Below are positions 2 to 48,923 of a stretch of 64,000 bases of DNA, in pieces. The stretch is taken from contig JAFQRZ010000024.1 in assembly GCA_017409825.1 (NCBI GenBank), positions 186,001-250,000 on the forward strand, in the 5' to 3' direction. The number at the start of each line of letters is the position of its first letter. The stretch's first letter is position 1. Source of the stretch: Agathobacter sp. GTDB taxonomy: Bacteria; Bacillota; Clostridia; Lachnospirales; Lachnospiraceae. The notes under the pieces were generated by a model, which had not been told where the DNA came from, did no database searches, and saw nothing but the letters and a program-made list of their open reading frames with translations. A program made the translations under genes and the position numbers.

Positions 2-313
2 TCAGAAAAAGTAGCTCTTTTGGACGAGCCATTTTCTGCGTTGGATATGCTGACGAAAGGCACTGTGCACGAATGGTATCTGGATGTTATGGAGAAGATT
101 AAGCTTTCCACGCTTTTCGTTACCCACGACATCGATGAAGCGATTTTGTTGTCAGACCGCATTTATCTATTGACTGGAAAACCGGGTACGATTACAAGGG
201 AGATTGTAATCAAAGAACCAAAACCAAGGGGAAAAGATTTCAATTTGACAGAAGAGTTTTTGGCGTATAAAAAGGAGATTATTTCTCATCTCGAAAATTC
301 AGATAAACTATAA
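2..313 (+). CDS. ABC transporter ATP-binding protein, NitT/TauT type, C-terminal part
   Basis: The reading frame is open from the first bases of the window, so this is the C-terminal third of a gene that begins upstream. It holds the Walker B stretch VALLDEPF, the D-loop SALD and the switch histidine in FVTHDIDEA, in the order found in ABC ATPases. The VTHDIDEAILLSDRI wording and the short basic tail fit the nitrate/sulfonate/taurine (SsuB/TauB) or thiamine-precursor importer group. It would energise uptake of a small organic solute at the membrane. The Walker A and signature motifs lie outside the window, so the substrate cannot be judged. A hairpin terminator follows at 357-401. Confidence 0.9.
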   Translation, partial: SEKVALLDEPFSALDMLTKGTVHEWYLDVMEKIKLSTLFVTHDIDEAILLSDRIYLLTGKPGTITREIVIKEPKPRGKDFNLTEEFLAYKKEIISHLENSDKL

Positions 314-356
314 GGATTATATGGATATTTGCCGATATAAGAATTAGCTATGGATT

Positions 357-401
357 GCGTCTAATTTCAACGGAATGAAACGTTGGAATTGGGCGCTTTT
401 T
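357..401 (+). terminator. Rho-independent terminator after the ABC ATPase
   Basis: The segment 357-370 pairs with 381-396 (GCGTCTAATTTCAACG against CGTTGGAATTGGGCGC with G-T pairs) and is followed by TTTTT. The loop sequence is shared with the hairpin at 1129-1172. Confidence 0.7.
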
Positions 402-446: not shown

Positions 447-1106
447 ATGAAAGAGGATATAAAGTCGAGTGCATCTGCCACAACAATTATCGGCAGCAAC
501 GATGGACCAACATCTGTTTTTATAGCAGGCGAGAGTCATAAACCAAATCTAAAACAGCAGTTACAGAAAAAATGGTTTGAATTAAGCAAAAGATGGCATG
601 CTTTATGGATAAAACCAGGTACGCACACGATGGAAGAGGTCGCTGAGTATATTCGTAAAAAATATGATTTCGTAGAAGTTTCTAGAGAATCGAAAAAGTA
701 CCAGCACTTATATCAAGAACTTCGCAGTTCGTTTATCATGCAATACGAACCACAGTTATTAGGAGAATATGCCACTTTACCAGAACTGAAAAGCCAAAAC
801 GAAGATGATGTGAAAGCATTTTTAGAGCAAATGCGGTTACGTCAGGAAAAAGCCAGCGAAGTATCGGAAGAATTATTTTCTTTGGACTATTACTACTTTG
901 AAAAGCAGGATAAGGACTTACATATGGAGTTGCAGCTAGAATCTCAGTTTGAGTATATTGGCGGGTGTACAAGCGGAAAGAGGATTTCTAAATTTCATAA
1001 GATATACAAAGATGTATATAAATATTATGGTGTTTCGGAAGATGATATTAAGAATCATACGAAGCGATATGAGAATCTATTACGTCAATTAGCAATACGA
1101 CATTAG
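447..1106 (+). CDS. Unknown soluble protein with Na+-decarboxylase beta-subunit-like N-terminal motif
   Basis: This 219-residue protein has a clear ribosome binding site (GAGGAG) before ATG 447. Residues 14-28 read IIGSNDGPTSVFIAG, close to the IIG..DGPT.I signature of the membrane beta subunit of sodium-pumping decarboxylases (OadB/GcdB/MmdB). The rest is charged, helical and without membrane segments, so it is not a beta subunit. Automated annotation may wrongly name such proteins as decarboxylase subunits. The gene stands alone between two similar hairpins (357-401 and 1129-1172), so it is probably a single-gene transcript. The function is unknown; a cofactor- or ion-linked role for the motif is only a guess. 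Confidence 0.75.
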   Translation: MKEDIKSSASATTIIGSNDGPTSVFIAGESHKPNLKQQLQKKWFELSKRWHALWIKPGTHTMEEVAEYIRKKYDFVEVSRESKKYQHLYQELRSSFIMQYEPQLLGEYATLPELKSQNEDDVKAFLEQMRLRQEKASEVSEELFSLDYYYFEKQDKDLHMELQLESQFEYIGGCTSGKRISKFHKIYKDVYKYYGVSEDDIKNHTKRYENLLRQLAIRH

Positions 1107-1128
1107 AAAAGTAAATAAATGCTATGGA

Positions 1129-1172
1129 AAGCATCTGATTTCAACGGAATGAGTTGAGATTAGATGCTTTTT
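1129..1172 (+). terminator. Rho-independent terminator
   Basis: AAAGCATCTGATTTCAAC pairs with GTTGAGATTAGATGCTTT around the loop GGAATGA, followed by a T run. It ends the gene at 447-1106 and shares its ATTTCAACGGAATGA core with the hairpin at 357-401. Confidence 0.8.
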
Positions 1173-1289
1173 TAATATTTATAGTCGTTTTATGCAATCG
1201 AATAGTCGAAGCATGCTTTGGCTATAATTCTTGCATTTTTCCTGTCGAAGAAAGAATATGAGAAAGTTTCTAAGAAAGGAGGCTGCTAT

Positions 1290-1646
1290 GTGAACATTAT
1301 TATTTATGATGACAGTGAAAAAGACAGAGCACGGCTTAAGAAACTAATTCGTCAGTATGAGCCAAAACCTGAGAAAAACATTGTTATTACAGAGTACTCA
1401 TCAGGAGAAAGAGGTGATTTGGATGATTTAATTGCAGATATTCATCAGAACAGGCAGGAACTGTTGTATCGATTTGTGGAAGGGGGGAAACGATTACGAA
1501 TTGAAGATATTATATATATAGAAACTTCTCGTCACAAAAATCTTTTCAAATGGAAAAGAGCTATCTGTTCCGAAAAGCAGATATCAAGAAGTAAAAAAAC
1601 AATATACAAACCACTTGGACCTTTCAGGAAAGTGGTGCAGTCCTGA
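1290..1646 (+). pseudogene. Decayed LytTR-family response regulator
   Basis: Translation from GTG 1290, seven bases after AAGGAGG, gives an AgrA/LytR-like receiver start (NIIIYDDSEKDRARLKKLI). It then jumps after about 45 residues to a LytTR DNA-binding start (RIEDIIYIETSRHKNLF). Most of the receiver domain, including the phosphorylation region, is missing. After HKNLF the expected sequence continues in the next frame (QMEKSYLFRK), which shows a frameshift. Intact members are about 240 residues; this frame yields 118. It looks like the remnant of a two-component regulator that may once have controlled the cassette just downstream. Confidence 0.7.
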
Positions 1647-1675
1647 CTGACCGAGGGACTGCGGAAAGGGAAACT

Positions 1676-2383
1676 ATGAATATTCAAGGATATGGCTCTG
1701 GTTCATTCGTAGACATCATGAACAGCAACCACAAACGAAATCAAATTCCATTTGTAAATCAGATTGTTTCATACAAGGATACGGAAGATGGTGAAATTTA
1801 TAGAGCTTATTTTACAGATGATAGGGTCACTACTCATAATGCAGTAGGACAAAAGGCATGGGAAACAGCAATTAAAGATGCCTCGCATGCACAGAAGATA
1901 AAAGAATCTCTAGGAGGAATTATCTTATATAGACAGGATAATTCTACTGGTAAAAAAGCTTTGACTTCGGTTGGTTTTCCAAATGGAGAAAGTATATCTG
2001 TTTTTGAAGCAGATGATTTTTCAAAAGAAAATCCAATCTATACAGTAAAATATTGGGACGAAAGCGGTGTAGAAAGTGAATACACCATAGATCCACGTGA
2101 AATTGACCCGGAAAATGCTAGTTATTTAGAGATGGCTGCCTATACGACTTATTTAGATGAGACAGGGCAGACAGAAAATGCATTCGGTCGTTTTGTGGGT
2201 GCAGTAAATGGTGTAAACGAAGAATCCGTCACAGATGTTTTAGATATGACAGATAAAAAGGACTTCTTAAGCATGATATATGATTATATGCAAATGCAAT
2301 ATGATGCCAACAATTTGGAAGGTTATTTATCGTTAAAAAGCATGTATGATTGTATGACAGGAGGAAAAGAGTATGAGCGTTAG
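1676..2383 (+). CDS. Unknown protein, paralogous cassette member A
   Basis: This 235-residue protein has no recognised family. Residues about 118-163 contain the block NPIYTVKYWDE...IDPREIDPENASYLEMAAYTTYLDE. The same block occurs in the next two genes (consensus NP.I....YxV..xEvDPxNAtxLEM.a..sYlDd). There is no signal peptide or membrane segment. The start follows GGAAAGGG, just after a GCAGTCC/GGACTGC hairpin at 1637-1662. Its last codons overlap the start of the next gene by 11 bases, which indicates co-translation. The MNIQGYGSGS start, rich in small polar residues, resembles the starts of its two relatives. Function unknown. Confidence 0.8.
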   Translation: MNIQGYGSGSFVDIMNSNHKRNQIPFVNQIVSYKDTEDGEIYRAYFTDDRVTTHNAVGQKAWETAIKDASHAQKIKESLGGIILYRQDNSTGKKALTSVGFPNGESISVFEADDFSKENPIYTVKYWDESGVESEYTIDPREIDPENASYLEMAAYTTYLDETGQTENAFGRFVGAVNGVNEESVTDVLDMTDKKDFLSMIYDYMQMQYDANNLEGYLSLKSMYDCMTGGKEYER

Positions 2384-3365
2384 TGCAATCGGAAATACAT
2401 ATAGTTATATATATAATTATGAAACCAAGAAATTGACCACTACAGATGGCGGTGAAAACGAATTCACGGAATATTTTAATGGTGAAATCGAGGGATATGA
2501 GTCCGAAACATTAAATGGCTTCGATAAGCAAAGAAGATCTGGTTTTAAAGATGTGTTGTCTTTACTAGAACAAGGAGCCTTCGGAAAAGAAAAGCCAGCA
2601 GAAGATGCAGTGTTAGAACTTTCAGGTAAAAATATTGATGCAGATACCATCGAATTTTACGTAAATGGGAAAAGGTATCTTAAATGTAGTGTAGCACCTG
2701 CTCTAACTTATGCAGAGTATGAAGAATGTTCAAGGATAAGAAATTCTGGAAAAGCCTATACCTGTACCAATAATGATGGTTGGTCTTATCCAGACGAAGT
2801 GTATAACCGAGTGTTAAAACGTTATGAAGATTGGTTAAATCAACCTCTTTCTGAAGTATTTGATGCAGAGGCTTACAGAGAGTCTCTTCGAAGTGGAAAT
2901 CATAGTGCAATAAGAGAATCTGATTCATCTGACAATGGTCGTGCAATCGGTGTAACAACAGTTGGAAATATTGGTTATATTGCAAGATATGCAGACTCGT
3001 CCACACCAGAGAATCCTGTGATAAAGATTGGATATTATGAGGTTCTCGTCAATGAAGTAGACCCTCATAATGCGACACAATTAGAAATGTTTTCGTTGCT
3101 ATCTTATTTAGATGACACGAATCAAACGAACAATACTGGGATGAGTTCATTTTCAAAATTGCGTACTTATGCTGAATTAGCAGAAGCCAATGGATTCTGT
3201 GAAGAAATTCGAGATGTAAATGCATTCTATGACAAAAATCAGAACTGGGAAGAAATCATGCGAGCGATTAAGGAAGTGTTTTTAGGCAATCCACAGACCT
3301 ATGAACAAGCGTTGAATTGCGATAGGTTGATTAACATTATGTCGGACAATAAAATGACATTTTAG
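2373..3365 (+). CDS. Unknown protein, paralogous cassette member B
   Basis: The second of three related genes encodes 330 residues. The N-terminus (MSVSAIGNTYSYIYNYETKKL) parallels member C (MTIQGIDYTSCCINPNTRQL). The shared block lies at about 189-248: AIGVTTVGNIGYIARYAD, then NPVIKIGYYEVLVNEVDPHNATQLEMFSLLSYLDD. Residues 25-110 form a separate N-terminal region with the phrases ENEFTEYFNGE and LNGFDKQRR. No secretion signal is visible. GGAGG precedes ATG 2373 inside the end of member A. Function unknown; the repeated block probably marks a common fold or partner-binding surface. Confidence 0.8.
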   Translation: MSVSAIGNTYSYIYNYETKKLTTTDGGENEFTEYFNGEIEGYESETLNGFDKQRRSGFKDVLSLLEQGAFGKEKPAEDAVLELSGKNIDADTIEFYVNGKRYLKCSVAPALTYAEYEECSRIRNSGKAYTCTNNDGWSYPDEVYNRVLKRYEDWLNQPLSEVFDAEAYRESLRSGNHSAIRESDSSDNGRAIGVTTVGNIGYIARYADSSTPENPVIKIGYYEVLVNEVDPHNATQLEMFSLLSYLDDTNQTNNTGMSSFSKLRTYAELAEANGFCEEIRDVNAFYDKNQNWEEIMRAIKEVFLGNPQTYEQALNCDRLINIMSDNKMTF

Positions 3366-3410
3366 TTTGATAGAGCAGAATAGATTAAATTAGGAAGTAG
3401 GGAATAAATT

Positions 3411-5324
3411 ATGACGATACAAGGTATTGATTATACATCATGCTGCATTAATCCAAACACAAGACAATTAACATCGAACAGAAATAATACAGCATGGTTA
3501 GATAAAGATGCTGCGGCATTTATGTGTGACAAGCTTCGTCCGATACATGATATTGCGGCTGCATTGGATATTCCATTGAATCTAGCAGATGAAACTTTTA
3601 TTGATAAAGTAAATAACGAGTTATACATAGCAGAAGGCAGTCATTTTACGTTTGATGGTGGATTTGTCTATACTGTTCTAGAAAAAGGAATTACTTGCGG
3701 ATATGGTACTCAAGAAGAATGGAATGGGGAAGTTCCTTTACCTGGTGATGCATCAAACGAAACATTAAATAGAGCCGCACAAGCAATGGCAGGTGCAATC
3801 GTACGCTTACTGCGTGATGCAACTGGAACTGTAGACGAAAGTATGCTAGGTCAAAAGAAACACATTCAGTTTCATCAGGATGTTTGTAAAGTTTTGGACT
3901 ATTTTGGTCTTGATTCTTCTCGTGATTTCTCTATTAACGGAGTGAAATATACACGTGATGAAGATGGGCTTTTTCGTTCCGAGAAATCTTATGCTGCACA
4001 GGAAGCTTATGAAGTATTGAGAAATAACAACCGCAGCTATGCACTTGCAGATGAAAGCACAAAGAAACGTGTGCACTACATGAGTGACTATTATTTAGCC
4101 AGTGCACCAGAAGAGGTGCGTAAAGCTTGGCAGGAAACCTTAGAAGAAACAGGCATTAATCCATTTCAATCTGGATATGTCAGCACTTTACAACAGCTTG
4201 CTACAGAACAGGATTTTGCTACTGGAGGCAACGACCAAATCTTTGGTGACAGTATCGAAAGTAGCATAGAAGCGATTGACAAGATTTTAAAGCGAATTGC
4301 CAATCCAAAGCATAGTGAGAAAGAAGATTATGTGAGTAGCATGGTTCCAGCAGAGCAAGAGATAGAAGTCTTTTTGACACTTCAAAGGAAGCTTATAAAT
4401 GGTGAGACAAATCAAGATTCTATTTCAAATGAAAGGGTAATTGGTATGACGATGATTCCATATAACGATAACGTCAGTTATGGTGTAATTGCAAAATATG
4501 CGGAGGAGTCAACAGCAGACAACCCTGTAATAGAGGTCATTTCTAATCGTGGCGGAGAGAAAGCAGTTTATAAGGTTAATGTCAACGAGGTTGATCCAAA
4601 CAACGCAACAATGTTAGAGATGTTTGCACTATTAAGCTATGCGGACGACCAAGGTTTATCAACACCTAGTTCATTTTCTTCTTTTCAAGAATTAAAGGTA
4701 TATGCAATGAATGCCGCTCAAAATGGTTATTGTGCGAGTGTAGAGAGTTTCGAGGATTTTGTTAATTTAAAGATGGATTGGACAAAGCCGATAAATGAGG
4801 TTGGACAAGACTATATGGAAGCTGGAATTTCGGAACAGTATAATGCTACACAAGCATTGTTAGATTTTTTACAAAAAAATATTGAAGAAATGCAAGCAAA
4901 CATCGAGGCTGGAAATGTAGATTTTGAACCAGCATTTCAAATAGGTGGAAAGGCCTACACACAAGAAGAATGGGACAAACTTCTAGAATATGTGGATGAA
5001 GTGGAAGAAGAAACCCAGGAAGCCATGGAAGTAGAACAGGCAATGAAAGAAGCTGCTGAAGAAACTGGATATGAGGAAGAAGGGCAGATGGATTATTTAT
5101 CACAGGCATTTATCAAGAAGGTAGAAAATCTGGTAAATGGCGTAGAGAATCCAAGTGACATCTTTGGTTCAATTATTGAATCCACTTTACAGGCAGCACA
5201 AGAACTTCTATTTGAGTTAGAAAATCCATTGACACCTGCAAGTGCAAGAGGTGAAAATGCAATAGAATATATGGAAAAGGAAAAAGCATATTATAGAGCA
5301 TTGATTGAACGATTGAAAATGTGA
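3411..5324 (+). CDS. Unknown large protein, paralogous cassette member C
   Basis: The third and largest cassette member has 637 residues. The conserved block lies at about 341-412 (VIGMTMIPYNDNVSYGVIAKYAEE...NPVIEVISN...VNVNEVDPNNATMLEMFALLSYADD). A long acidic helical tail from about 480 is rich in E, Q and A, with stretches such as EVEEETQEAMEVEQAMKEAA that suggest coiled coil. No signal peptide or membrane segment is seen. It sits 45 bases after member B behind GGAAGTAGGG and probably belongs to the same operon. No enzyme motif was recognised. A structural or scaffold role, or export by a signal-less route, are both possible but unsupported. Confidence 0.8.
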   Translation: MTIQGIDYTSCCINPNTRQLTSNRNNTAWLDKDAAAFMCDKLRPIHDIAAALDIPLNLADETFIDKVNNELYIAEGSHFTFDGGFVYTVLEKGITCGYGTQEEWNGEVPLPGDASNETLNRAAQAMAGAIVRLLRDATGTVDESMLGQKKHIQFHQDVCKVLDYFGLDSSRDFSINGVKYTRDEDGLFRSEKSYAAQEAYEVLRNNNRSYALADESTKKRVHYMSDYYLASAPEEVRKAWQETLEETGINPFQSGYVSTLQQLATEQDFATGGNDQIFGDSIESSIEAIDKILKRIANPKHSEKEDYVSSMVPAEQEIEVFLTLQRKLINGETNQDSISNERVIGMTMIPYNDNVSYGVIAKYAEESTADNPVIEVISNRGGEKAVYKVNVNEVDPNNATMLEMFALLSYADDQGLSTPSSFSSFQELKVYAMNAAQNGYCASVESFEDFVNLKMDWTKPINEVGQDYMEAGISEQYNATQALLDFLQKNIEEMQANIEAGNVDFEPAFQIGGKAYTQEEWDKLLEYVDEVEEETQEAMEVEQAMKEAAEETGYEEEGQMDYLSQAFIKKVENLVNGVENPSDIFGSIIESTLQAAQELLFELENPLTPASARGENAIEYMEKEKAYYRALIERLKM

Positions 5325-5415: not shown

Positions 5416-5703
5416 ATGAAAGAAATAAGATTCGAATGGGATGAAAATAAGAACACTATCAATAAATCAAAACATAAAATTGCATTTGAAGAGGCAAAAT
5501 CAGTTTTTGAAGATGCGGATGCATTGGTGATTGACGATCCAGATCATTCAGAGGAAGAAGACCGATTTATTATTTTAGGGCTTAGCAAAAAAGCAAATCT
5601 TCTGGTAGTTTGTCATTGCTATAGGGAATCTGATAGTGTAATACGAATTATTTCAGCTAGAAAAGCAACAAAAACAGAAACAAGACAATACAATGAATTC
5701 TAA
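5416..5703 (+). CDS. brnT: BrnT family ribonuclease toxin
   Basis: The 95-residue protein matches BrnT: FEWDENKNTINKSKHKIAFEEAKSVFEDADAL, then DPDHSEEEDRFIILGLS and a C-terminal RIISARKATKTETRQY. BrnT is a RelE-fold ribonuclease that stops translation until BrnA binds it. Its length is normal for the family. The start codon has no Shine-Dalgarno sequence and coincides with the predicted transcription start, so the mRNA may be leaderless. The antitoxin gene follows 16 bases after the stop, in the toxin-first order usual for this family. Confidence 0.92.
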   Translation: MKEIRFEWDENKNTINKSKHKIAFEEAKSVFEDADALVIDDPDHSEEEDRFIILGLSKKANLLVVCHCYRESDSVIRIISARKATKTETRQYNEF

Positions 5704-5719
5704 GGGAAAGGAGACCAAT

Positions 5720-5929
5720 ATGAGAGACGAATACGATTTTTCTAATGCAAAAAGAAATCCATATGCAAAAAGAACAAAGAAACAAATCACCATCAATATT
5801 GATAGTGAAGCGATTGATTATTTCAAAGTTCAGTCTGAAAAAAGTGGTATTCCATACCAGACGCTTATTAATCTGTATTTGTGTGATTGTGCTACTAATT
5901 CCAGAGAACTTCAATTATCTTGGAAATAA
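5720..5929 (+). CDS. brnA: BrnA family antitoxin
   Basis: This 69-residue protein begins at ATG 5720 behind AAAGGAG, in preference to the upstream in-frame ATG at 5693 inside brnT, which has no ribosome site. The sequence KRTKKQITINIDSEAIDYFKVQSEKSGIPYQTLINLYLCDCA is a ribbon-helix-helix domain of BrnA type. It binds the toxin and normally represses the shared promoter at 5381-5409. Its strong ribosome site contrasts with the leaderless toxin and would favour excess antitoxin. Confidence 0.9.
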   Translation: MRDEYDFSNAKRNPYAKRTKKQITINIDSEAIDYFKVQSEKSGIPYQTLINLYLCDCATNSRELQLSWK

Positions 5930-6006: not shown

Positions 6007-6095
6007 ATAATTTGTTTAATTAAATTTGGGTAAAACTGAGATATTTTCTTCTAAAACCATAGTATATAGATGAGGCAGAAAGGATGGTAAGCAGT

Positions 6096-6653
6096 ATGGA
6101 CGATAGTAAAATTATTGAATTGTTCTATGAGCGCTCAGAGCAGGCAATCATTGAACTATCACATAAATACGGAACTGTTTGCACCAAGGTTGCTAATAAC
6201 ATATTGAATGATGTACGAGACACCGAAGAATGCGTAAATGATGCATATCTTGGAGCGTGGAATACAATACCGCCTCATAATCCAAATCCACTTTTAAGCT
6301 ATGTTTGTCGCATTGTTCGAAATCTTGCTATTAAGCGATATCACAGTAATACTGCAAAGAAACGAAATAGTATCTACGATGTTGCACTGGATGAACTAGA
6401 AAATTGTTTCCCAGCATCTAATACTGTGGAGAATGAGTTTTATGCAGAAGAAACTGCACGCATTATTGATTGCTTTCTAGATGGTTTGGATAAAGAAAGC
6501 AGAGTAATGTTTGTCAGACGATATTGGTATGCGGATTCGATTTCGGATCTCGCACAACTCTTTCATACAAGCAACCATAATGTATCGGTTCGACTTTCAC
6601 GAATCCGTAATAAACTGAAAAAATATCTAATTCAGGAAGGAGTGCTTTTATGA
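6096..6653 (+). CDS. ECF-like sigma-70 family RNA polymerase sigma factor (copy 1)
   Basis: The start chosen is ATG 6096 (MDDSKIIELFYERSEQAI), 12 bases inside the longest frame. It has AAAGGA at good spacing and matches the start of the paralogue at 11469. The 185 residues hold sigma region 2 (NILNDVRDTEECVNDAYLGAWNTIPP...LLSYVCRIVRNLAIKRY) and region 4 (VMFVRRYWYADSISDLAQLFHTSNHNVSVRLSRIRNKLKKYL). It would direct RNA polymerase to a small regulon. The stop overlaps the next gene by four bases (ATGA), and that gene encodes a membrane protein placed as its anti-sigma factor. Confidence 0.9.
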   Translation: MDDSKIIELFYERSEQAIIELSHKYGTVCTKVANNILNDVRDTEECVNDAYLGAWNTIPPHNPNPLLSYVCRIVRNLAIKRYHSNTAKKRNSIYDVALDELENCFPASNTVENEFYAEETARIIDCFLDGLDKESRVMFVRRYWYADSISDLAQLFHTSNHNVSVRLSRIRNKLKKYLIQEGVLL

Positions 6654-7318
6654 GAAGAAAAAGAATATCAGAAACGATGCAACATATAGATACCAAATTT
6701 TTAAATGAAGTCAATGAATATGCTGGAACATCAAAAGAAAATAGACACACGGTATGGATCAGGTGGAGTGCGATTGCAGTTTGCCTATGTCTGATTATAG
6801 CTGCTGTAGTTGGTGTGCCAAATCGTTTTGGAAATAATCCAAATGGAGATAACGACCTCATATCTGTGGAACAAGATGGCACAATAATTGTCGATTTCAA
6901 AGCAACTGCTGACACCAGCTATTCGGCACCAGAACCTGGGGAATATTTCTGTTTCATTGAGGTGAATGAAGCCCGAAAGGAATATGCTGGTAAAAACATG
7001 CGGTATTTGCTTTCTTTTGACTTATTTAAAGCAGATGGTGAATCTATCAGTGAGGAAGAATTAAAAGCAGAGTATCAACGCCTTGCTGACTTGGGATATA
7101 AGCTTTACTATGTAGAAGACCATTGGACCTTTTATGGCGACAATCAGAAAAAATATATTCCTGTTGTGGTCGGTCTATTTACCGATGAAGAGCTAGATAA
7201 TTTCCAAGCAAATGAGAAATATGGTTATGCATTCCATTTCGAAACCAATGGAGACTGTTCACCTATCAAAATTGATGTTAATGATGTGGTTACCGATTTT
7301 GATTCCATTTTATATTAA
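6650..7318 (+). CDS. Membrane-anchored putative anti-sigma factor (copy 1)
   Basis: The 222-residue protein has a short charged cytoplasmic part, one membrane segment at about 36-56 (WIRWSAIAVCLCLIIAAVVGV) and a roughly 165-residue outer domain. The first residues (RRKRISETMQHIDTKFLNEV) resemble those of many clostridial proteins coupled to this sigma class. The outer domain has no recognised family and may sense an envelope signal. It is translationally coupled to the sigma gene by a four-base overlap and followed by a terminator at 7332-7360. The anti-sigma role is inferred from position and topology. Confidence 0.75.
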   Translation: MRRKRISETMQHIDTKFLNEVNEYAGTSKENRHTVWIRWSAIAVCLCLIIAAVVGVPNRFGNNPNGDNDLISVEQDGTIIVDFKATADTSYSAPEPGEYFCFIEVNEARKEYAGKNMRYLLSFDLFKADGESISEEELKAEYQRLADLGYKLYYVEDHWTFYGDNQKKYIPVVVGLFTDEELDNFQANEKYGYAFHFETNGDCSPIKIDVNDVVTDFDSILY

Positions 7319-11381: not shown

Positions 11382-11468
11382 ATTTTACACGAACCTGTGA
11401 CGCAGTCAGCCTTTTGTGGTGTATTAGGATGAAAGGCCTTAACACACCAGGAAAGGGGGATGAGGGGT

Positions 11469-12029
11469 ATGGACGATAAGCGGATTATAGAATTGTATCA
11501 AAAACGCTCAGAAGCGGCGATATCGGAGACTGCGAACAAATACGGAAAGTACTGCTATTTTATAGCGTATCACATTTTATACAGTGAAGAAGACAGTGAG
11601 GAGTGCGTCAACGATACATACTTGCGTGCATGGGAAGCGATTCCACCGCAGTGTCCAGAAAAATTGTCGACGTTTCTTGGCAAAATCACACGCAACCTTG
11701 CATTGAATCGATACAAATATTATCTTCGAGAAAAACGTGGAAATGGAAAGGCAGAACTTGTCATTGACGAACTAAATGAATGTATTCCAGCGTCTAATAA
11801 TACTGAAGAGTCAGTTGATGAGATTTTATTGGTAGAGCTATTAAATCAGTTTTTGTATAGTCTGCCAAAGCAAAAAAGAATTATATTTTTAAGACGATAT
11901 TGGTATATGAGTTCAATCCAGGAGATTGCGAAGGATTATGGATTCAGCGAAAGCAAGGTGAAAATGATCTTGCTTCGTACTCGAAACAAGTTGAAACAGG
12001 TTTTGGAGAAAGAAGGTATCGTTTTATGA
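11469..12029 (+). CDS. ECF-like sigma-70 family RNA polymerase sigma factor (copy 2)
   Basis: ATG 11469 (MDDKRIIELYQKRSEAAI) follows GAGGGG. It is preferred over ATG 11460 because it matches the paralogue at 6096. The 186 residues have region 2 (SEECVNDTYLRAWEAIPPQ...FLGKITRNLALNRY) and region 4 (IIFLRRYWYMSSIQEIAKDYGFSESKVKMILLRTRNKL). It is clearly related to the copy at 6096, so the window carries two diverged modules of one sigma class. The stop overlaps the next gene by four bases. A paired-arm segment precedes it at 11410-11450. Confidence 0.9.
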   Translation: MDDKRIIELYQKRSEAAISETANKYGKYCYFIAYHILYSEEDSEECVNDTYLRAWEAIPPQCPEKLSTFLGKITRNLALNRYKYYLREKRGNGKAELVIDELNECIPASNNTEESVDEILLVELLNQFLYSLPKQKRIIFLRRYWYMSSIQEIAKDYGFSESKVKMILLRTRNKLKQVLEKEGIVL

Positions 12030-42139: not shown

Positions 42140-42256
42140 AAGTTTAATACCTTAAACTTTTTACATCATAAGTTCAAATAAGAATTTATTCAAAACGCCA
42201 TCGGTGATGGCCCACAGTGTGTGGAAGCAAAAAGTCTGCTGATGCAGGCTTTTTTT
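42140..42256 (+). ncRNA. tracrRNA of the type II-A system
   Basis: Bases 42142-42178 are an imperfect complement of the CRISPR repeat (GTTTAATACCTTA, then TTTTTACATCAT, then TTCAAAT). A small AATAA/TTATT hairpin follows, likely the nexus. Three stems come after it: GCCATC-GGT-GATGGC, CCACA-GTG-TGTGG and the terminator AAGTCTGC-TGAT-GCAGGCTT with a T run. It guides repeat cleavage by RNase III and holds crRNA in Cas9. It lies on the same strand as cas9, which starts 30 bases after it. Confidence 0.92.
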
Positions 42257-42285
42257 GTTATATTATATTGTTAAGGAGGATGTAT

Positions 42286-45200
42286 ATGGAAAAAGAATAC
42301 TATTTAGGTCTAGATATTGGAACTGGCTCAGTTGGATGGGCAGTAACGACACCAAACTATGAAATAATAAGAAGTCATGGAAAATCAATGTGGGGTGTTC
42401 GTTTATTTGAATCTGCAAAAACTGCAGAAGAAAGACGTATTGCTAGAACTTCCAGAAGGAGATTAGCTCGCAGAAGTTGGCGTATTGAGCTTTTACAAGC
42501 CATTTTTTGTTCTGAAATAGATAAAATAGATAATGGATTTTTTCATAGAATGAAAGAAAGTCAATATCTTCCAGAAGATAAGCGTAATCTTGAGGGTATC
42601 ATTCCATCTCTTCCTTATACTTTATTTGTTGATAAAAAATATACAGATAAAGACTATCACAAACAGTTTCCAACTATATATCATTTAAAAAAATATTTAA
42701 TGGAAACTGAAGAAACACCTGATATTCGTTTGGTTTATTTAGCAATTCATCATATTATAAAACATAGAGGTCATTTCTTGTTTCATGGAAACTTCGATTC
42801 CATCAGAGATTTCAATAATTTGTTTGAACAGTTTTATGAAAGCATTAGCAATGAAGAACTTGATTTTAGTATTTCACTTTCAAAAGATGAAATCGATTTA
42901 ATTGAAGATATATTAAAGGACAAAAATTTGACTCGTTCTACGAAAAAAAGCAAATTACAAAAAGAACTTCATGCTAATACTTTATGTGAAAAGGCAATTC
43001 TTGCGCTTTTGTGCGGATGTACTGTTAAACTTAGTGATATATTTGGAAATTCAGAATTAGATGATGTAGAAAGACCAAAGATTTGTTTTACAGAAGCAAG
43101 CTATGAAGATAACGCAAGTATATATGAGACCGAGTTAGGAGAGTTCTATTATATAATTGCACAAGCAAAAGCAATCTATGACTGGACTATTCTAGTTGAT
43201 ATTCTTGGAGAAAAGGATTCCCTTTCTTCTTCAAAAGTTTCTTTATATAACAAACATAAAAAAGATTTAAAATATCTAAAAAAAATTGTAAAGACATACC
43301 TTACACAGGAAGATTATAAAAACATATTTGTTAAAACAAGTGATAGGCTTTCTAATTATCCTGCCTACATAGGAATGACAAAAGTAAATGGCAAAAAAGT
43401 TACAATACAGGGAAAACAATGTAGCAAAGATGATTTCTATCTATTTTTAAAGAAAAACGTTGTTTCAAAAATAGAAGAAGAAAAGATTTTATATCTTGTA
43501 GAAGAATTAAATAAAGGAAGTTTTTTGCCTAAACTTGTCACAAAAGAAAATAGTGTATTGCCTAATCAAATTCATTTATATGAATTAAACGTTATTTTAG
43601 ATAATTTAGAAGATAAACTTCCAGTTATTAAAGAAAATCGTGAAAAGATAGAACAAATATTTAGTTTTCGTATTCCATATTATGTTGGCCCGTTAAACGG
43701 AATACGTAAAAATGGAGTTTCATCTAATTGGGCTGTTCGAAATTCCAATGAAAAAATATATCCGTGGAATTTTGAAGAAGTAATTAATATCGAAGAAAGT
43801 GCCGAGAGATTTATTCGTAGAATGACAAACAAATGTACTTATTTAGTACATGAGGATGTATTACCGAAGAACTCAATACTTTATAGTAAATTTGTAGTTC
43901 TAAATGAACTAAACAATTTGCGATTAAATGGTGAGCCAATTAGCATTGAATTAAAACAACGTATCTATGAAGAACTTTTCCAGCGAACAAGAAAAGTAAC
44001 ACAAAAGAAACTAAAAGACTATCTAGTTCGAAATGGTATTGCCGAAAGAAATGTTGATATTACTGGAATAGATGGTGATTTTAAAGGATCTCTAATTGCA
44101 TATCATGATTTCAAAGAAAAGCTAACTGGTGTAGATTTGTCACAAGATGAAAAAGAAAATATAATTTTAAATATCACTTTGTTTGGAGAGGATAAAAAGC
44201 TTTTAAAACAAAGATTAAAAAAATTATATCCTAGACTAACCGATAAGCAACTTACCGAATTATCAAAACTTTCATATGCTGGATGGGGAAGATTTTCGTA
44301 CAAATTCTTATCTAGAATTACCGCGCCATCTCCAGACTCTGGCGAAGTATGGACTATTATCCAAGCACTTTGGGAAACAAATGATAATTTGATGCAAATT
44401 CTTAGTTCAAAATATCTTTTTGAAAAAGAAATTGAACGTGAAAACGGAGTTCTAGAAACCGAAGAAATCTCTTATAAGCTTGTAGACGAATTATATGTAT
44501 CACCATCTGTAAAACGTCAGATTTGGCAGACTCTTATCATAGTAAAAGAAATATGCAAAATTATGGGTAATCCGCCACTACGTATATTTGTAGAAATGTC
44601 TCGTGAAAAATTAGAAAACAAACGAACCACATCTAGAAGAAATTATTTAATAGATTTGTATAAAAACTGTACATTTGAAGAAAAAGAATGGATAAAAGAA
44701 TTAGAAGTTATAGATGAAAGTTCTCTACGAGGAGATAAGTTATATCTATACTATACTCAAAAAGGACGATGCATGTATTCAGGCGAACCAATTGAGTTGG
44801 AAGACTTGTGGGATAATCGAAAATACGATATTGATCATATTTATCCTCAATCTAAAATTATGGATGATAGTATTGATAACAGAGTACTTGTAAAAAAAGA
44901 ACTTAACTCTGAAAAATCTGATACATATCCTATTAAACCAGAAATTCGTAATTCAATGAAGAGTTTTTGGAATTCACTATTAGATGGAGGATTTATATCA
45001 AAGAAAAAATTCGAGCGATTGACACGTAGTACAGAATTTGAAGCAAATGAATTAGCTGGCTTTATTGATAGACAGTTAGTCGAAACTCGTCAAGGGACCA
45101 AGGCTGTAGCATCTATACTAAAGCAAACATTACCTAATTCCGAAATAGTATACACTAAAGCAAAAATAGTTTCTAAATTTAGAGATGATTTTGACTTCAT

Positions 45201-46296
45201 AAAAGTACGTGAAATGAATGATTTACATCATGCAAAAGATGCCTATTTAAATATCGTTGTAGGAAACACCTATTTTGTTAAATTTACAAAAAATGCTTCA
45301 TGGTTTATACATAATAATCCAGGTCGTAGTTACAATCTACAGAAAATGTTTACATCTTCCAAGGTAGAAAGCAATGGTGAAATTGCATGGATTTCAGGCG
45401 AAAATGGAACAATAAAAACTGTTAGAAACACAATGAACAAAAATAATATTCTTGTTACACGTAGATCTTATGAAGTAACAGGAGCTCTGTTCGATTTGCA
45501 AATATTAAAGAAAGGAAAAGGACAGGTATCAATTAAAGGTAGCAACGATAGATTATCTGATATTTCAAAATATGGTGGATATAACAAGGCTACCGGTACT
45601 TATTTTGTTTTGGTAGAGTCAAAAGATAAAAAAGGAAATAAAATTCGTACGATAGAGTATGTTCCATTATATTTAAAAGATAAAATGGAGCAAGATAGTG
45701 AATCTGCAAAAAATATTTTAATAGAAAGAGGCCTAATAGATCCAATTATATTAATCCATAAAATAAAAATAGATAGTTTATTTAAAGTAGATGGATTTTA
45801 TATGTGGCTTTCTGGCCGAACTGGCAATCAGTTAGTTTTTAAAGGGGCAAATCAATTAATTTTGTCCGATTACTATCAAACGATTTTAAAAAAAGTTATT
45901 AAATTCTATAACAGACGACTTGAAAATAAAAACTATATGATTTCTGAAAAAGATAATTTAACACACGAAGCATTACTTAACCTATATGATTGTTTTATTG
46001 ATAAATTATCAAATGCAATCTATAGTAAACGTTTAGGGTTACAAGCAATCACTTTACAGGAAAAGAAAGAAAATTTTATAAAACTTAGTATTGAGAATAA
46101 ATGTTTAGTTTTGTATGAAGTATTGCATTTATTCCAATGTCAAAGTGTAGCTGCGAACCTTTCTCAAATTGGCGGTCCTGGACATGCTGGAATACTAGTT
46201 TTAAACAATAATATTACCAAAGCAAACAAAATTTCAATTATTAATCAATCTCCAACCGGAATCTACGAACAGGAGATTGATTTAAAATCAGTATGA
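42286..46296 (+). CDS. cas9: CRISPR-associated endonuclease Cas9, type II-A
   Basis: ATG 42286 follows AAGGAGG; the longer frame from 42217 runs back through the tracrRNA. The 1336-residue protein has RuvC-I with D10 (LGLDIGTGSVGWAV), the arginine-rich bridge helix (RRIARTSRRRLARRSWR), RuvC-II with E770 (FVEMSREK), the HNH site with D850, H851 and N874 (DIDHIYPQS, ELNSEKSD), and RuvC-III with H982 and D985 (HHAKDAYLN). All catalytic residues are present, so both strands of target DNA should be cut. Length and partners fit II-A. It overlaps cas1 by four bases. The PAM cannot be read from the sequence. Confidence 0.98.
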   Translation: MEKEYYLGLDIGTGSVGWAVTTPNYEIIRSHGKSMWGVRLFESAKTAEERRIARTSRRRLARRSWRIELLQAIFCSEIDKIDNGFFHRMKESQYLPEDKRNLEGIIPSLPYTLFVDKKYTDKDYHKQFPTIYHLKKYLMETEETPDIRLVYLAIHHIIKHRGHFLFHGNFDSIRDFNNLFEQFYESISNEELDFSISLSKDEIDLIEDILKDKNLTRSTKKSKLQKELHANTLCEKAILALLCGCTVKLSDIFGNSELDDVERPKICFTEASYEDNASIYETELGEFYYIIAQAKAIYDWTILVDILGEKDSLSSSKVSLYNKHKKDLKYLKKIVKTYLTQEDYKNIFVKTSDRLSNYPAYIGMTKVNGKKVTIQGKQCSKDDFYLFLKKNVVSKIEEEKILYLVEELNKGSFLPKLVTKENSVLPNQIHLYELNVILDNLEDKLPVIKENREKIEQIFSFRIPYYVGPLNGIRKNGVSSNWAVRNSNEKIYPWNFEEVINIEESAERFIRRMTNKCTYLVHEDVLPKNSILYSKFVVLNELNNLRLNGEPISIELKQRIYEELFQRTRKVTQKKLKDYLVRNGIAERNVDITGIDGDFKGSLIAYHDFKEKLTGVDLSQDEKENIILNITLFGEDKKLLKQRLKKLYPRLTDKQLTELSKLSYAGWGRFSYKFLSRITAPSPDSGEVWTIIQALWETNDNLMQILSSKYLFEKEIERENGVLETEEISYKLVDELYVSPSVKRQIWQTLIIVKEICKIMGNPPLRIFVEMSREKLENKRTTSRRNYLIDLYKNCTFEEKEWIKELEVIDESSLRGDKLYLYYTQKGRCMYSGEPIELEDLWDNRKYDIDHIYPQSKIMDDSIDNRVLVKKELNSEKSDTYPIKPEIRNSMKSFWNSLLDGGFISKKKFERLTRSTEFEANELAGFIDRQLVETRQGTKAVASILKQTLPNSEIVYTKAKIVSKFRDDFDFIKVREMNDLHHAKDAYLNIVVGNTYFVKFTKNASWFIHNNPGRSYNLQKMFTSSKVESNGEIAWISGENGTIKTVRNTMNKNNILVTRRSYEVTGALFDLQILKKGKGQVSIKGSNDRLSDISKYGGYNKATGTYFVLVESKDKKGNKIRTIEYVPLYLKDKMEQDSESAKNILIERGLIDPIILIHKIKIDSLFKVDGFYMWLSGRTGNQLVFKGANQLILSDYYQTILKKVIKFYNRRLENKNYMISEKDNLTHEALLNLYDCFIDKLSNAIYSKRLGLQAITLQEKKENFIKLSIENKCLVLYEVLHLFQCQSVAANLSQIGGPGHAGILVLNNNITKANKISIINQSPTGIYEQEIDLKSV

Positions 46297-47165
46297 GTTG
46301 GAGAATTATCGTTATCTCAAAACGAGCAAAACTAGATTATCAACTTGGTTTTATGGTTGTACGTAGTGATGAGATAACGAAAATCCATCTAGGCGAAATT
46401 TCTACTATTTTGATTGAATCTACGGCTGTATCAATTACAACTAGTCTGCTTGCAGAATTAACCAAGAGAAAGATTAAAGTAATTTTTTGTGATGAAAAAC
46501 GTAATCCTTCTTCTGAATTGATTGGTTATTATGGAAGTCACGATACAAGTAACAAAGTAAGACATCAAATAGCATGGAAGCAAAATACAAAAGAAGCTAT
46601 CTGGACAGAAATTGTGACAGAGAAAATTCGAAAACAAAAAGAGTTTTTAGAATTACTAAATAAGGAGGAAGCGATATTATTAGATTCATATATTAAAGAA
46701 ATTTCATGGAATGATGAATCTAATAGGGAAGGTCACGCTGCAAAAGTATATTTTAATGCATTATTTGGATTGGATTTTACGAGAACTGCTGATTCTCCTA
46801 TCAATGCTGGTTTAAATTATGGTTATACAATTATTTTATCTGCTTTTTGTAGGGAAGTAGTTGCTAATGGCTATATTACGCAACTTGGACTATTTCACGA
46901 TAATATGTTCAACCAATTTAATTTAGCTTCCGATTTAATGGAGCCATTTCGTATTTTGGTCGACCAAAAAGTATATTCTATGCGATATAGCGAATTAGAA
47001 CATGAACAGAAAATGGAATTAGTAAATATTCTTAACCAGGAAGTACGAATTGATGGGAAAAACCAATATGTTAATAATGCAATTAAAATATATTGTAAAA
47101 GTATATTTGATGCTTTAAATGAGAATGACAGTTCCTTAATTCGTTTTTATAGTTTTGAGTTATAG
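46293..47165 (+). CDS. cas1: CRISPR-associated endonuclease Cas1
   Basis: The 290-residue protein is Cas1 of type II: MSWRIIVISKRAKLDYQLGFMVVR, STILIESTAVSITTSLLAELTKRKIKVIFCDEKRNPSSEL, NREGHAAKVYFNALFG with the metal-binding glutamate, NAGLNYGYTIILSAFCREVVANGY, and LGLFHDNMFNQFNLASDLMEPFR with the histidine and aspartate. It inserts new spacers together with Cas2. The four-base overlaps with cas9 show translational coupling. Confidence 0.98.
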   Translation: MSWRIIVISKRAKLDYQLGFMVVRSDEITKIHLGEISTILIESTAVSITTSLLAELTKRKIKVIFCDEKRNPSSELIGYYGSHDTSNKVRHQIAWKQNTKEAIWTEIVTEKIRKQKEFLELLNKEEAILLDSYIKEISWNDESNREGHAAKVYFNALFGLDFTRTADSPINAGLNYGYTIILSAFCREVVANGYITQLGLFHDNMFNQFNLASDLMEPFRILVDQKVYSMRYSELEHEQKMELVNILNQEVRIDGKNQYVNNAIKIYCKSIFDALNENDSSLIRFYSFEL

Positions 47166-47169
47166 ATTT

Positions 47170-47475
47170 ATGCGAGTAATAGTATTTTTTGATTTACCTG
47201 TTGTAACAGGAGAAGAACGAAAAGCATATATACAGTTTCGTAAATTCCTTTTAAAAAGTGGTTTTATGATGGTGCAAGAGTCTGTATATTGCAAATTAGC
47301 ATTGAATGGAAGTACGGTGAATTCCATTATCGATAATGTACGTAGAAATAGTCCAGAAAAAGGATTAATTCAGATACTTACAATCACAGAAAAACAGTAT
47401 TCTAAAATGGATATGATAATAGGTGATGTTAAAAGTGAAATTCTAGATAGCGATGAAAGGCTGGTGATTCTATGA
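47170..47475 (+). CDS. cas2: CRISPR-associated endonuclease Cas2
   Basis: I start at ATG 47170 (MRVIVFFDLPVVTGEERKAY), the usual Cas2 beginning; the upstream TTG at 47155 lies inside cas1. The 101 residues have the ferredoxin-like fold phrases KFLLKSGFMMVQESVYCKL and IQILTITEKQYSKMDMIIG. It bridges Cas1 dimers in the integration complex. The gene lies four bases after cas1 and overlaps csn2 by four. Confidence 0.97.
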   Translation: MRVIVFFDLPVVTGEERKAYIQFRKFLLKSGFMMVQESVYCKLALNGSTVNSIIDNVRRNSPEKGLIQILTITEKQYSKMDMIIGDVKSEILDSDERLVIL

Positions 47476-48140
47476 TATTAGCACATTCAGAATTGACAGA
47501 ATCATTACATATTTCTGATTTTGAAGTAACCGAGTGGATAGTAGAATCTCCAGAACTTTTTATACAATATCTCAATGAATTATCTGTTCAAATTAATGGA
47601 CAAAATGGAAGATTTGTATTATCTAGAAATGACAAAGAACTTAACATTTCAAAATCTATTGAGATTATATTTAGTCCGTTTTTATTAGAGATAAATGAAA
47701 AGAAAGTTCTCTCAAAAATATATCTAGAACTACAAGATATTGCAAATGATGAAAATACATATTTAAAAACGAGAGAACTTGTAACTGCAATACATCAATA
47801 TTTTTTAGATATTGAACAATCATACTCTATGACGCTTTCTATATATGATGATATTGATTTGCAGAGTTTATTTAAACTTCTTGGTGTAAAAATAGAAGTT
47901 AATTCATTAAGTTTATTTGAAATACTTCTTCAATATATGAAGTTGCAAACAGTTCTGTTAAATAAAAAACTTATTATTCTTGTTAACACAAATAGTTACT
48001 TGACTGAAACACAAATACAAGAGTTATGTTTATTCTCTCAGCATAATGAAATAAATATTCTATTATACGAGAGTTATCAAAGATATTTTACAAAAAAAAT
48101 TAAAACATATATAATAGATACAGATAAATGTGAAATATAA
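47472..48140 (+). CDS. csn2: Type II-A CRISPR-associated protein Csn2
   Basis: The 222-residue protein is placed last in the cas operon and its length matches Csn2. Phrases such as FVLSRNDKELNISKSIEIIFSPFLLEINEKKVLSKIY and LLNKKLIILVNTNSYLTETQIQELCLFSQHNEINILLYES fit the family. Csn2 forms a tetrameric ring on DNA ends and is needed for spacer capture. Its presence makes the system II-A rather than II-C. It ends 57 bases before the first repeat. Confidence 0.93.
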   Translation: MILAHSELTESLHISDFEVTEWIVESPELFIQYLNELSVQINGQNGRFVLSRNDKELNISKSIEIIFSPFLLEINEKKVLSKIYLELQDIANDENTYLKTRELVTAIHQYFLDIEQSYSMTLSIYDDIDLQSLFKLLGVKIEVNSLSLFEILLQYMKLQTVLLNKKLIILVNTNSYLTETQIQELCLFSQHNEINILLYESYQRYFTKKIKTYIIDTDKCEI

Positions 48141-48197
48141 TTTATGTTTGAATACTAGTTTTATACTCCGTGATAGTATTTCATTTTCTAATTTGAG
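48141..48197 (+). promoter_or_regulatory. CRISPR leader with ATTTGAG anchor
   Basis: The 57-base leader runs from the csn2 stop to repeat 1 and ends in ATTTGAG (48191-48197). This matches the leader-anchoring sequence of type II-A systems, which fixes integration at the first repeat. GTTTGAATAC at 48146-48155 copies the reverse complement of the repeat end. Confidence 0.8.
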
Positions 48198-48893
48198 GTT
48201 TGAGAATGATGTAAAAACATAAGGTATTCAAACGGTTACTGTACTCTTACAGGTATAGACCAAGTTTGAGAATGATGTAAAAACATAAGGTATTCAAACT
48301 CTACTCTCCGTGTCCTGTACGACGGGAACGTTTGAGAATGATGTAAAAACATAAGGTATTCAAACCTTAAGAACGATTGGAACACCTGAAGCACCGTTTG
48401 AGAATGATGTAAAAACATAAGGTATTCAAACCGTTGTTGAGATTACAACAGATGAAGAGGTGTTTGAGAATGATGTAAAAACATAAGGTATTCAAACTTA
48501 ATGATTCTTGCAACATCATCAATGCCCGTTTGAGAATGATGTAAAAACATAAGGTATTCAAACCTAAAGGCATGGGAAGAAGTGCTGCGTAGAGTTTGAG
48601 AATGATGTAAAAACATAAGGTATTCAAACGATGGATGATACCTACAGAGAGGTACACGCGTTTGAGAATGATGTAAAAACGTAAGGTATTCAAACAGACC
48701 AACTTGCACCAATGCTTGCTTGTGTGTTTGAGAATGATGTAAAAACGTAAGGTATTCAAACTCAAGCTGGTGTGCAAAAGTGCCGTAAAAGGTTTGAGAA
48801 TGATGTAAAAACGTAAGATATTCAAACTATTGAATATTTAAACAAAAGCATTAGAGAGTTTGAGAATGATGTAAAAACGTAAGATATATAAAC
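48198..48893 (+). CRISPR. Type II-A CRISPR array, 11 repeats and 10 spacers
   Basis: Each 36-base repeat runs from GTTTGAGAATGATG to GGTATTCAAAC, starting at 48198, 48264, 48330, 48396, 48462, 48528, 48594, 48660, 48726, 48792 and 48858. All ten spacers are exactly 30 bases. Repeats 1-7 are identical. Repeats 8-11 have A22G, repeats 10-11 add G27A, and repeat 11 adds T31A and C32T. The decay toward 48893 marks that as the old, leader-distal end. No spacer matched another part of the window by eye. Confidence 0.98.
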
Positions 48894-48923
48894 CAATAAC
48901 TTATATTTATATTGATATTTATA

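Follow-up and report, generated by a model that had tools for sequence, protein, structure and literature searches.

This report concerns three adjacent genes, A, B and C, near the start of a 64,000-nucleotide (nt) stretch of the genome of an Agathobacter species of the Lachnospiraceae (assembly GCA_017409825.1); the whole stretch is referred to below as the window. Gene A is preceded by a two-hairpin RNA leader, here named E2, that also precedes the hook-protein gene flgE in the same genome and in many other Clostridia. Our reading, which we think reasonably probable, is that genes A to C make up the protein-coding portion of an accessory operon within the flagellar regulon and that their products leave the cell by way of the flagellar apparatus. 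That the operon is tied to flagella through its regulation is well supported. What sequence comparison establishes is the presence of E2 on both flgE and gene A, the structure of E2, the promoter-like boxes and the co-occurrence with flagellar genes.

The hook-gene leader in front of gene A

In the window E2 is oriented in the sense direction and lies directly 5' of a start codon, ending at position 1670 with gene A beginning at 1676. It overlaps the 3' end of the open reading frame (ORF) of a LytTR regulator remnant and extends to the ribosome-binding site; the remnant ORF ends in PLGPFRKVVQS because it runs into this conserved nucleotide element. E2 is found upstream of many genes that share a sequence block with A, B and C (block genes, see below), where it is read in the same or in other frames. 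Its layout consists of a stem, a GGA bulge, a CC-loop-GG segment and a stem, followed by another stem capped by a 12-nt loop that holds [C/U]GA[A/C][U/C]GACAGA. The window copy has both hairpins, with the GGAC[C/U] and [C/U]GA[A/C][U/C]GACAGA loops and compensatory stems, and its second loop reads UGACUGACCGA. It scores 82.7 bits against the covariance model R1, being one of the 37 copies from which that model was built (37 of 38 distinct pattern matches were aligned; L089:818-878, with a damaged first stem, was left out).

The 37 copies of R1, all in front of orphan genes, align nearly without gaps, and RNAalifold returns both hairpins from them unaided. Changes on both sides are seen in 12 of 16 base pairs, and 97.3% of the alignment cells are paired, as compared with 86.5% in shuffled alignments and at most 48.2% when the structure is slid along the sequence. 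Forty hook-gene leaders, chosen for diversity from the class-level sites described below and aligned by MAFFT with no model as a guide, yield the same two hairpins by themselves, with changes on both sides in 13 of 15 pairs, 96.8% of cells paired (73.4% shuffled, at most 51.2% slid) and a covariation score of 0.718 versus 0.230 after shuffling. Rfam 15 has no match to the window E2, the sole overlap being on the other strand and scoring 17.2 bits where the gathering threshold is 39; E2 was likewise unmatched in ten further loci, hook-gene leaders included, where two sub-threshold matches fell elsewhere in L230.

In 39 kb of the flagellar operon of the same genome, the sole clear E2 match (27.1 bits; the next scores 8.4) is directly upstream of flgE, the product of which has FlgE as its best NCBIfam model. 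This leader was missed by R1 at E 0.001 in the search of relatives, and was recovered in a focused search and by a broader model, R3; at that threshold R1 finds three E2 copies in this genome, and in a relative (G005) it finds one 25 nt before the flgE start. Matches to E2 occur in 40 of 250 Lachnospiraceae genomes, a sample with nearly always one genome per genus. With R3, E2 was detected in 77 of 393 Clostridia genomes, representing 45 of 220 genera and 24 families. Of the 85 distinct sites at this class level, 74 precede a hook-type gene (70 labelled by an N-terminal pattern and 4 on inspection, L220, L255 and L258 being added by eye and L236, where flgE starts 74 nt after E2, following a wider look), 9 precede other ORFs and 2 precede none. 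Hook-type genes stand behind E2 in 23 of the 24 families, the remaining one being that of G550. A stretch of G550 contains five E2 copies packed into 5.4 kb (G550:C11:5808-11188, L253).

Ten of the downstream proteins were compared with NCBIfam, and all exceed the cut-off of the FlgE/F/G subfamily model and none that of an equivalog model; the best named model is FlgE for eight of them and FlgG for the remaining two, which are short (L209, L255), and Pfam agrees for ten. When all sites are pooled, 203 distinct E2 sites comprise 83 before hook-type genes, 108 before other genes and 12 without a clear ORF. These labels were assigned by N-terminal pattern, and the 108 include one or more hook genes (L236). 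The hook gene is the only gene of known function that was seen to recur behind E2. At the family level, block genes follow 16 of the 57 sites, and a DUF6033 gene lies directly behind a copy at L111.

Since E2 is sited where ribosomes bind, and in many cases between two genes of one operon, a role in the control of translation seems likely. A plain CsrA site was considered and set aside, since the GGA of hairpin 1 is not invariant (GGU and GGG occur) and lies outside an ANGGAN hexaloop. The existence of a covarying hook-gene leader in 23 families of Clostridia suggests a checkpoint on hook synthesis that has not been described, and because E2 fronts many orphan genes it could be used to trace a flagellar regulon of the Lachnospiraceae that has so far gone unrecognised.

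Co-occurrence with flagellar genes

With flhA as the marker for flagella, 124 of the 250 family genomes (counting G268 despite its short matches) and 156 of the 393 class genomes (counting G525, which is below the curated cut-off) are scored as positive. At the family level flhA is present in 29 of the 30 genomes with a block gene (Fisher p 4e-9), in all 40 with E2 (p 1e-14) and in all 22 with E1, a second leader element described below (p 7e-8). The figure for E2 is partly trivial, because E2 includes the flgE leaders; that for the block is not so. Across the class, flhA is found in 75 of the 77 genomes with E2, compared with the 156 of 393 overall. The first-pass annotation of the window, made from the sequence alone, had proposed a survey for flagellar links; the leader shared with flgE and the near-constant presence of flhA with the block bear out that proposal. 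Neither E1 nor E2, which together furnish the strongest evidence, was noticed in that annotation.

Genes A, B and C and their shared block

The three ORFs, of 235, 330 and 637 residues, are present as annotated (Table 1), and their close packing holds as well, A and B overlapping by 11 nt and B and C being separated by 45 nt. They have in common a block of ~120 residues, a similarity far beyond chance: blastp aligns B with C at 39% identity over 134 residues (E 6e-25), A with B at E 8e-9 and A with C at E 5e-7. That the block sits in differing scaffolds proved to be general, as 104 block proteins in 86 of 87 gene neighbourhoods (the window included) range from 115 to 862 residues, apart from one fragment of 69 residues, and some of them carry two blocks. 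The further claim that B and C begin alike stands only in part: plain blastp gives no significant alignment of the N-termini, whereas an iterated profile ties the N-terminal part of B to proteins from several loci, L014 and L025 among them, and a second profile ties the head of C (INPNTRxLTSN) to proteins of L014 and L025.

Profile searches with A, B and C returned no Pfam or NCBIfam match over the cut-off, so that no known family can be named, as had been anticipated. Gene A has no match in either database even at E 1, and B and C have only weak matches that fall short of the cut-off. None of the three proteins matches the profiles of DUF6033, DUF3879 or DUF4885, families that occur in related clusters, over the cut-off. 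An AlphaFold2 prediction for residues 332-503 of C, based on a block alignment in which 67 of 74 sequences were used, is of high confidence (pLDDT 91.7, pTM 0.87) and folds the block as four strands followed by five helices; the full-length model of B is poor outside the block (pLDDT 71). A known fold was sought for the block and not found: the best PDB sequence match has E 0.0048 over 33 residues only, and Foldseek gave nothing among PDB structures at E 0.001, its best match being at E 0.15. Given that Pfam and NCBIfam yield no match over the cut-off and PDB no convincing one, the block looks like an undescribed domain, in keeping with the idea of a new family built around one module. Its duplication within and between proteins suggests a domain for assembly or binding.

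The N-termini of E2-led proteins

Proteins other than FlgE that are encoded behind E2 are varied in sequence and alike at their starts, where M-x-[IV]-x-G-[IVL]-G is followed by tyrosines. A loose form of this pattern, defined after inspection of the same proteins, is present in 54 of 87 distinct E2-led orphan starts versus 105 of 1005 neighbourhood proteins (E2-led ones included). Over residues 2-30 of 83 E2-led orphans leucine is reduced to 0.31-fold, isoleucine, glutamate, lysine and cysteine are also low, serine, threonine, asparagine, glutamine and tyrosine are enriched 1.5- to 2-fold, and glycine is enriched too. A hydrophobic segment was found in 1 of the 83, as against 140 of 894 proteins. 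The judgement that signal peptides and membrane segments are absent and that the start is polar and poor in leucine rests for gene A on its place among these 83 proteins, and for B and C on inspection by eye.

Signals for type III export are N-termini of this polar, leucine-poor look. The composition fits export without a cleaved signal and is no proof of it. Export is the most likely route given that there is no signal peptide and that the start rich in Ser, Thr, Asn, Gln and Tyr and poor in Leu is common to other E2-led proteins, and we would say that the flagellar apparatus probably carries A, B and C out of the cell, with a confidence that is close to evenly divided. The suggestion in the first-pass annotation that they form an export substrate family has thereby gained a flagellar leader RNA, sigma-28-type promoters, co-occurrence with flhA and a suitable N-terminal composition, while export itself is something that we infer.

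The E1 leader and its promoter-like boxes

A second conserved element, E1, is made up in order of GCUANGGA, a hairpin that bears UUCAANGGAUUGA close to the top, and a U-run, and it sits upstream of E2 or before other cluster genes, LytTR regulators included. The two copies in the window are matched by the covariance model R2 at 57.1 bits (G000:C17:186347-186402, copy 1, one of the 36 that build R2) and 59 bits (G000:C17:187121-187173, copy 2). In the whole genome R2 detects five copies at E 0.001, all of them within the two block clusters, and 22 of the 250 family genomes have at least one. The initial strict pattern gave one case only; the E1 alignment includes 36 of 41 copies, with L059, L068, L096, L115 and L130 left out as near-duplicates or odd cases.

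The promoter consensus for SigD is TAAA-N15-GCCGATAA, and this form was the one used to recognise the SigD-like promoter at 311-337 of the window. Promoters of this kind occur within the 75 nt upstream of 22 of 36 E1 copies, compared with 0.385% of 20,000 random 75-mers from the same loci, and in 15 of those 22 they lie 8-10 nt before E1. The GGA motifs of E1 are similar to CsrA/RsmA sites, which are described as ANGGAN hexaloops, two of which can be bridged by one dimer (PMC7652899). The genome contains csrA, and E1 is a candidate target of its product; we grade the evidence for E1 below that for E2.

Proposed mechanism and alternative explanations

The favoured reading would work as follows. 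The operon would be transcribed from sigma-28-type (SigD) promoters into an mRNA beginning with E1, a terminator-like leader that bears GGA and is a candidate for CsrA control. Translation of gene A would start behind E2, which comparison within this genome and across the Clostridia identifies as the same RNA as the flgE leader. Because the same two-hairpin RNA leads both gene A and flgE, the operon and the hook protein are probably under the same post-transcriptional control, and translation control at E2 might be tied to hook assembly. The products, starting M-x-I-x-G-[IV]-G...Y, would then most likely pass out by the flagellar export gate, either while the hook is being assembled or afterwards, and would act outside the cell, two steps about which our judgement is evenly balanced. 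A bolder version, in which E2 is an RNA address that couples hook-protein translation to the export gate and has been borrowed by diverse Lachnospiraceae genes for delivery of their products through the flagellum, is speculative and we regard it as unlikely.

Several observations weigh against the favoured reading. Genes A, B and C encode cysteines, which are uncommon in axial flagellar proteins, and the N-terminal pattern was, as said, defined on the proteins in which it was counted. Genome G174 has a block gene without flhA and without a Flg_bb_rod match, G550 has its five E2 sites in front of orphan genes (one with a GTG start) and no flhA match, and G350 has a hook-gene leader and no flhA match; these exceptions argue against an absolute dependence on flagella. 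E2 was found in only 75 of the 156 flhA-positive class genomes, although weak matches are lost to the filters of the bulk search. With regard to E1, R2 has no match near flgE in this genome; 14 of 36 copies, copy 2 of the window among them, have no sigma-28 match; its conservation is partly built in by a search pattern that enforced part of the motif; RNAalifold assigns it only three base pairs; and its single-sequence minimum free energy fold is one long terminator-like hairpin and not two ANGGAN hexaloops.

Some of these points would be accommodated if the operon were co-regulated with flagella through sigma-28, CsrA and E2 and its products remained inside the cell, serving in the cytosol as, for instance, regulators or factors for assembly. 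All of the regulatory evidence fits this explanation equally well, as do the cysteines and the retention of block or E2-led genes in G174 and G550 without an flhA match. It accounts less readily for the short, polar, leucine-poor N-terminus shared by E2-led proteins, many of them without the block, which is more tag-like than expected by chance, or for the diversity and patchy occurrence of the family, both of which are frequent among exported or surface proteins, and we consider it doubtful while taking it more seriously than the other alternatives. E2 might instead be a general translation enhancer or mRNA stabiliser, in which case its sharing with flgE would be uninformative about any flagellar role of A to C. 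Its position directly at ribosome-binding sites (the median distance to the start codon is 6 nt in orphans and 22 nt in hook genes) agrees with this, as does the presence in 51 of 108 orphan copies of CCUUUC in the hairpin-1 loop together with the complementary GAAAGG in the Shine-Dalgarno region. The pair is found in 0 of 83 hook-gene leaders, however, so that this pairing is not the conserved function of E2, and anti-Shine-Dalgarno pairing was accordingly rejected as its general function. That nearly all genomes with E2 also have flhA (40 of 40 and 75 of 77), and that the one known-function gene seen to recur behind it is that of the hook, would also be unexpected for a general enhancer, and we judge a function of this kind improbable.

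A mobile or phage-borne cassette stabilised by the brnTA toxin-antitoxin genes that adjoin gene C would be consistent with the patchy distribution and the regulator remnant. The link to phages that had been put forward for checking found no support in a comparison with the viral contigs of IMG/VR, in which 14 pattern matches gave 0 confirmed relatives, and an origin from phage was rejected on this account. No homologue of BrnT turned up in the other 86 neighbourhoods, and it is therefore not a regular part of the system. The genes are accompanied by LytTR regulators in 42 of 87 neighbourhoods and by E1 and E2 in different genera, and the conservation of the two leaders from genus to genus argues for resident regulation; such a cassette is thus very hard to credit.

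Relation to known systems

In Bacillus subtilis the leader RNA of the flagellin gene hag is under the control of CsrA-FliW (PMC7652899), and the resemblance to the present system lies in a flagellar gene with leader-RNA control, in the GGA motifs of the E1 hairpin and in the presence of csrA. The difference is that E2 stands before flgE and orphan genes, that inspection of the genes downstream of it brought no flagellin gene to light, and that the GGA of its first hairpin is variable and lies outside any ANGGAN hexaloop. Post-transcriptional control of flagellar genes is likewise described for Campylobacter, where small RNAs act on flagellar genes including flgE (PMC11187230, PMC4626219), and for flagellin mRNA, the localisation of which is guided by CsrA-FliW (PMC4894983). 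The Campylobacter regulators are described as trans-acting small RNAs, whereas E2 is a conserved cis element of Clostridia. Non-motility proteins tied to flagellar secretion include MakA of Vibrio (PMC6123715) and FlaC of Campylobacter (PMC4863622); here the likeness is in the proposed export route, which for A to C would be a matter of analogy.

Among the papers listed, titles and the opening parts of abstracts describe no flgE or flagellar leader RNA, riboswitch, 5' untranslated region or stem-loop like E2, and none of those listed bears by its title on secretion substrates of Lachnospiraceae flagella; no literature was found under the names DUF6033 and DUF3879. Structured leader RNAs are a known kind of element of which E2 appears to be a new example, being without a match in Rfam 15 and, as far as the listed titles and beginnings of abstracts go, without a published description. 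The interest lies in the combination, in which the leader of the hook gene is reused by a large set of accessory genes. Questions that this makes testable are what binds E2 and whether the flagella of commensal bacteria secrete proteins beyond their own parts.

Distribution, gene neighbourhoods and other features of the window

Table 1. Positions of the genes, shared blocks, leader elements and neighbouring features discussed in the text, numbered from the first nucleotide of the window
Feature	Position	Strand	Remarks
Sigma-28 (SigD)-like promoter	311..337	+	TAAG-N16-GCCGATA; 9 nt 5' of E1 copy 1
E1 copy 1	347..401	+	GCUANGGA, then terminator-like hairpin with GGA near top, U-run
219-residue protein	447..1106	+	IIGSNDGPTSVF motif; E1-led; one homologue (L014) in 87 neighbourhoods scanned
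E1 copy 2	1121..1172	+	Before LytTR remnant; no sigma-28 match within 75 nt upstream
LytTR response regulator remnant	1218..1646	+	Middle of receiver and C-terminal part missing
E2	1610..1670	+	Two-hairpin RNA leader of gene A, 61 nt; same element as flgE leader
Gene A	1676..2383	+	235 residues; first gene behind E2
Shared block in A	1961..2200	+	Residues 96-175
Gene B	2373..3365	+	330 residues; model with low-confidence N-terminal half, block confident
Shared block in B	2946..3263	+	Residues 192-297
Gene C	3411..5324	+	637 residues
Shared block in C	4437..4793	+	Residues 343-461

The genes are accessory in their distribution, as had been supposed: B as a query matched 6 of 40 genomes, its own included, and the block is present in only 30 of the 250 family genomes. 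Among contigs of GTDB, 98 stretches with the block were found, of which 79 loci were kept, mostly with Lachnospiraceae in their titles and a few from other Clostridia. Block genes do co-occur, in groups of two to four in 13 of 86 neighbourhoods, and stand singly in the other 73; the exact set of A, B and C was met nowhere else, no search having been aimed at it. A fourth block copy of the same genome is on contig C25, in a second cluster (L012:3690-12885, G000) that contains a block gene, a LytTR regulator, a GHKL kinase, DUF6033, two E2 and three E1 copies.

The neighbours of block genes include LytTR response regulators, as counted above, GHKL kinases (27 of 87 neighbourhoods, window included) and DUF6033 (26), in addition to other recurrent families; four pairs of loci are identical or nearly so (L013/L079, L016/L078, L018/L098, L038/L040) and are counted twice in these tallies. 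An AgrB protein (L016:11803-12489, E 8e-36) is located near a block gene, a LytTR regulator and a GHKL kinase, and therefore suggests peptide quorum sensing in some of the clusters.

The regulator upstream of gene A is decayed, in agreement with its initial description: the ORF corresponds to two segments, residues 4-43 and 121-169, of a complete regulator of 239 residues, so that the beginnings of the receiver and of the LytTR portion are kept, with the middle missing and the end cut. The brnTA pair downstream was confirmed by matches to BrnT (E 3e-29) and BrnA (E 3e-7) at 5416-5929, just 3' of gene C. The protein encoded at 447-1106, with the short motif DGPTSVF, has a weak Pfam match, below the cut-off, to OAD_beta of the sodium-pump decarboxylase beta subunits (E 0.025). 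Farther along the window there are two sigma-70 family factors, at 6084-7318 and 11460-12029, the first being followed by a gene for a protein of 222 residues that has no Pfam match and by eye appears to be membrane-anchored, and a type II CRISPR-Cas locus at 42217-48899 with Cas9, Cas1, Cas2, Csn2 and a repeat array of period 66 from position 48198.

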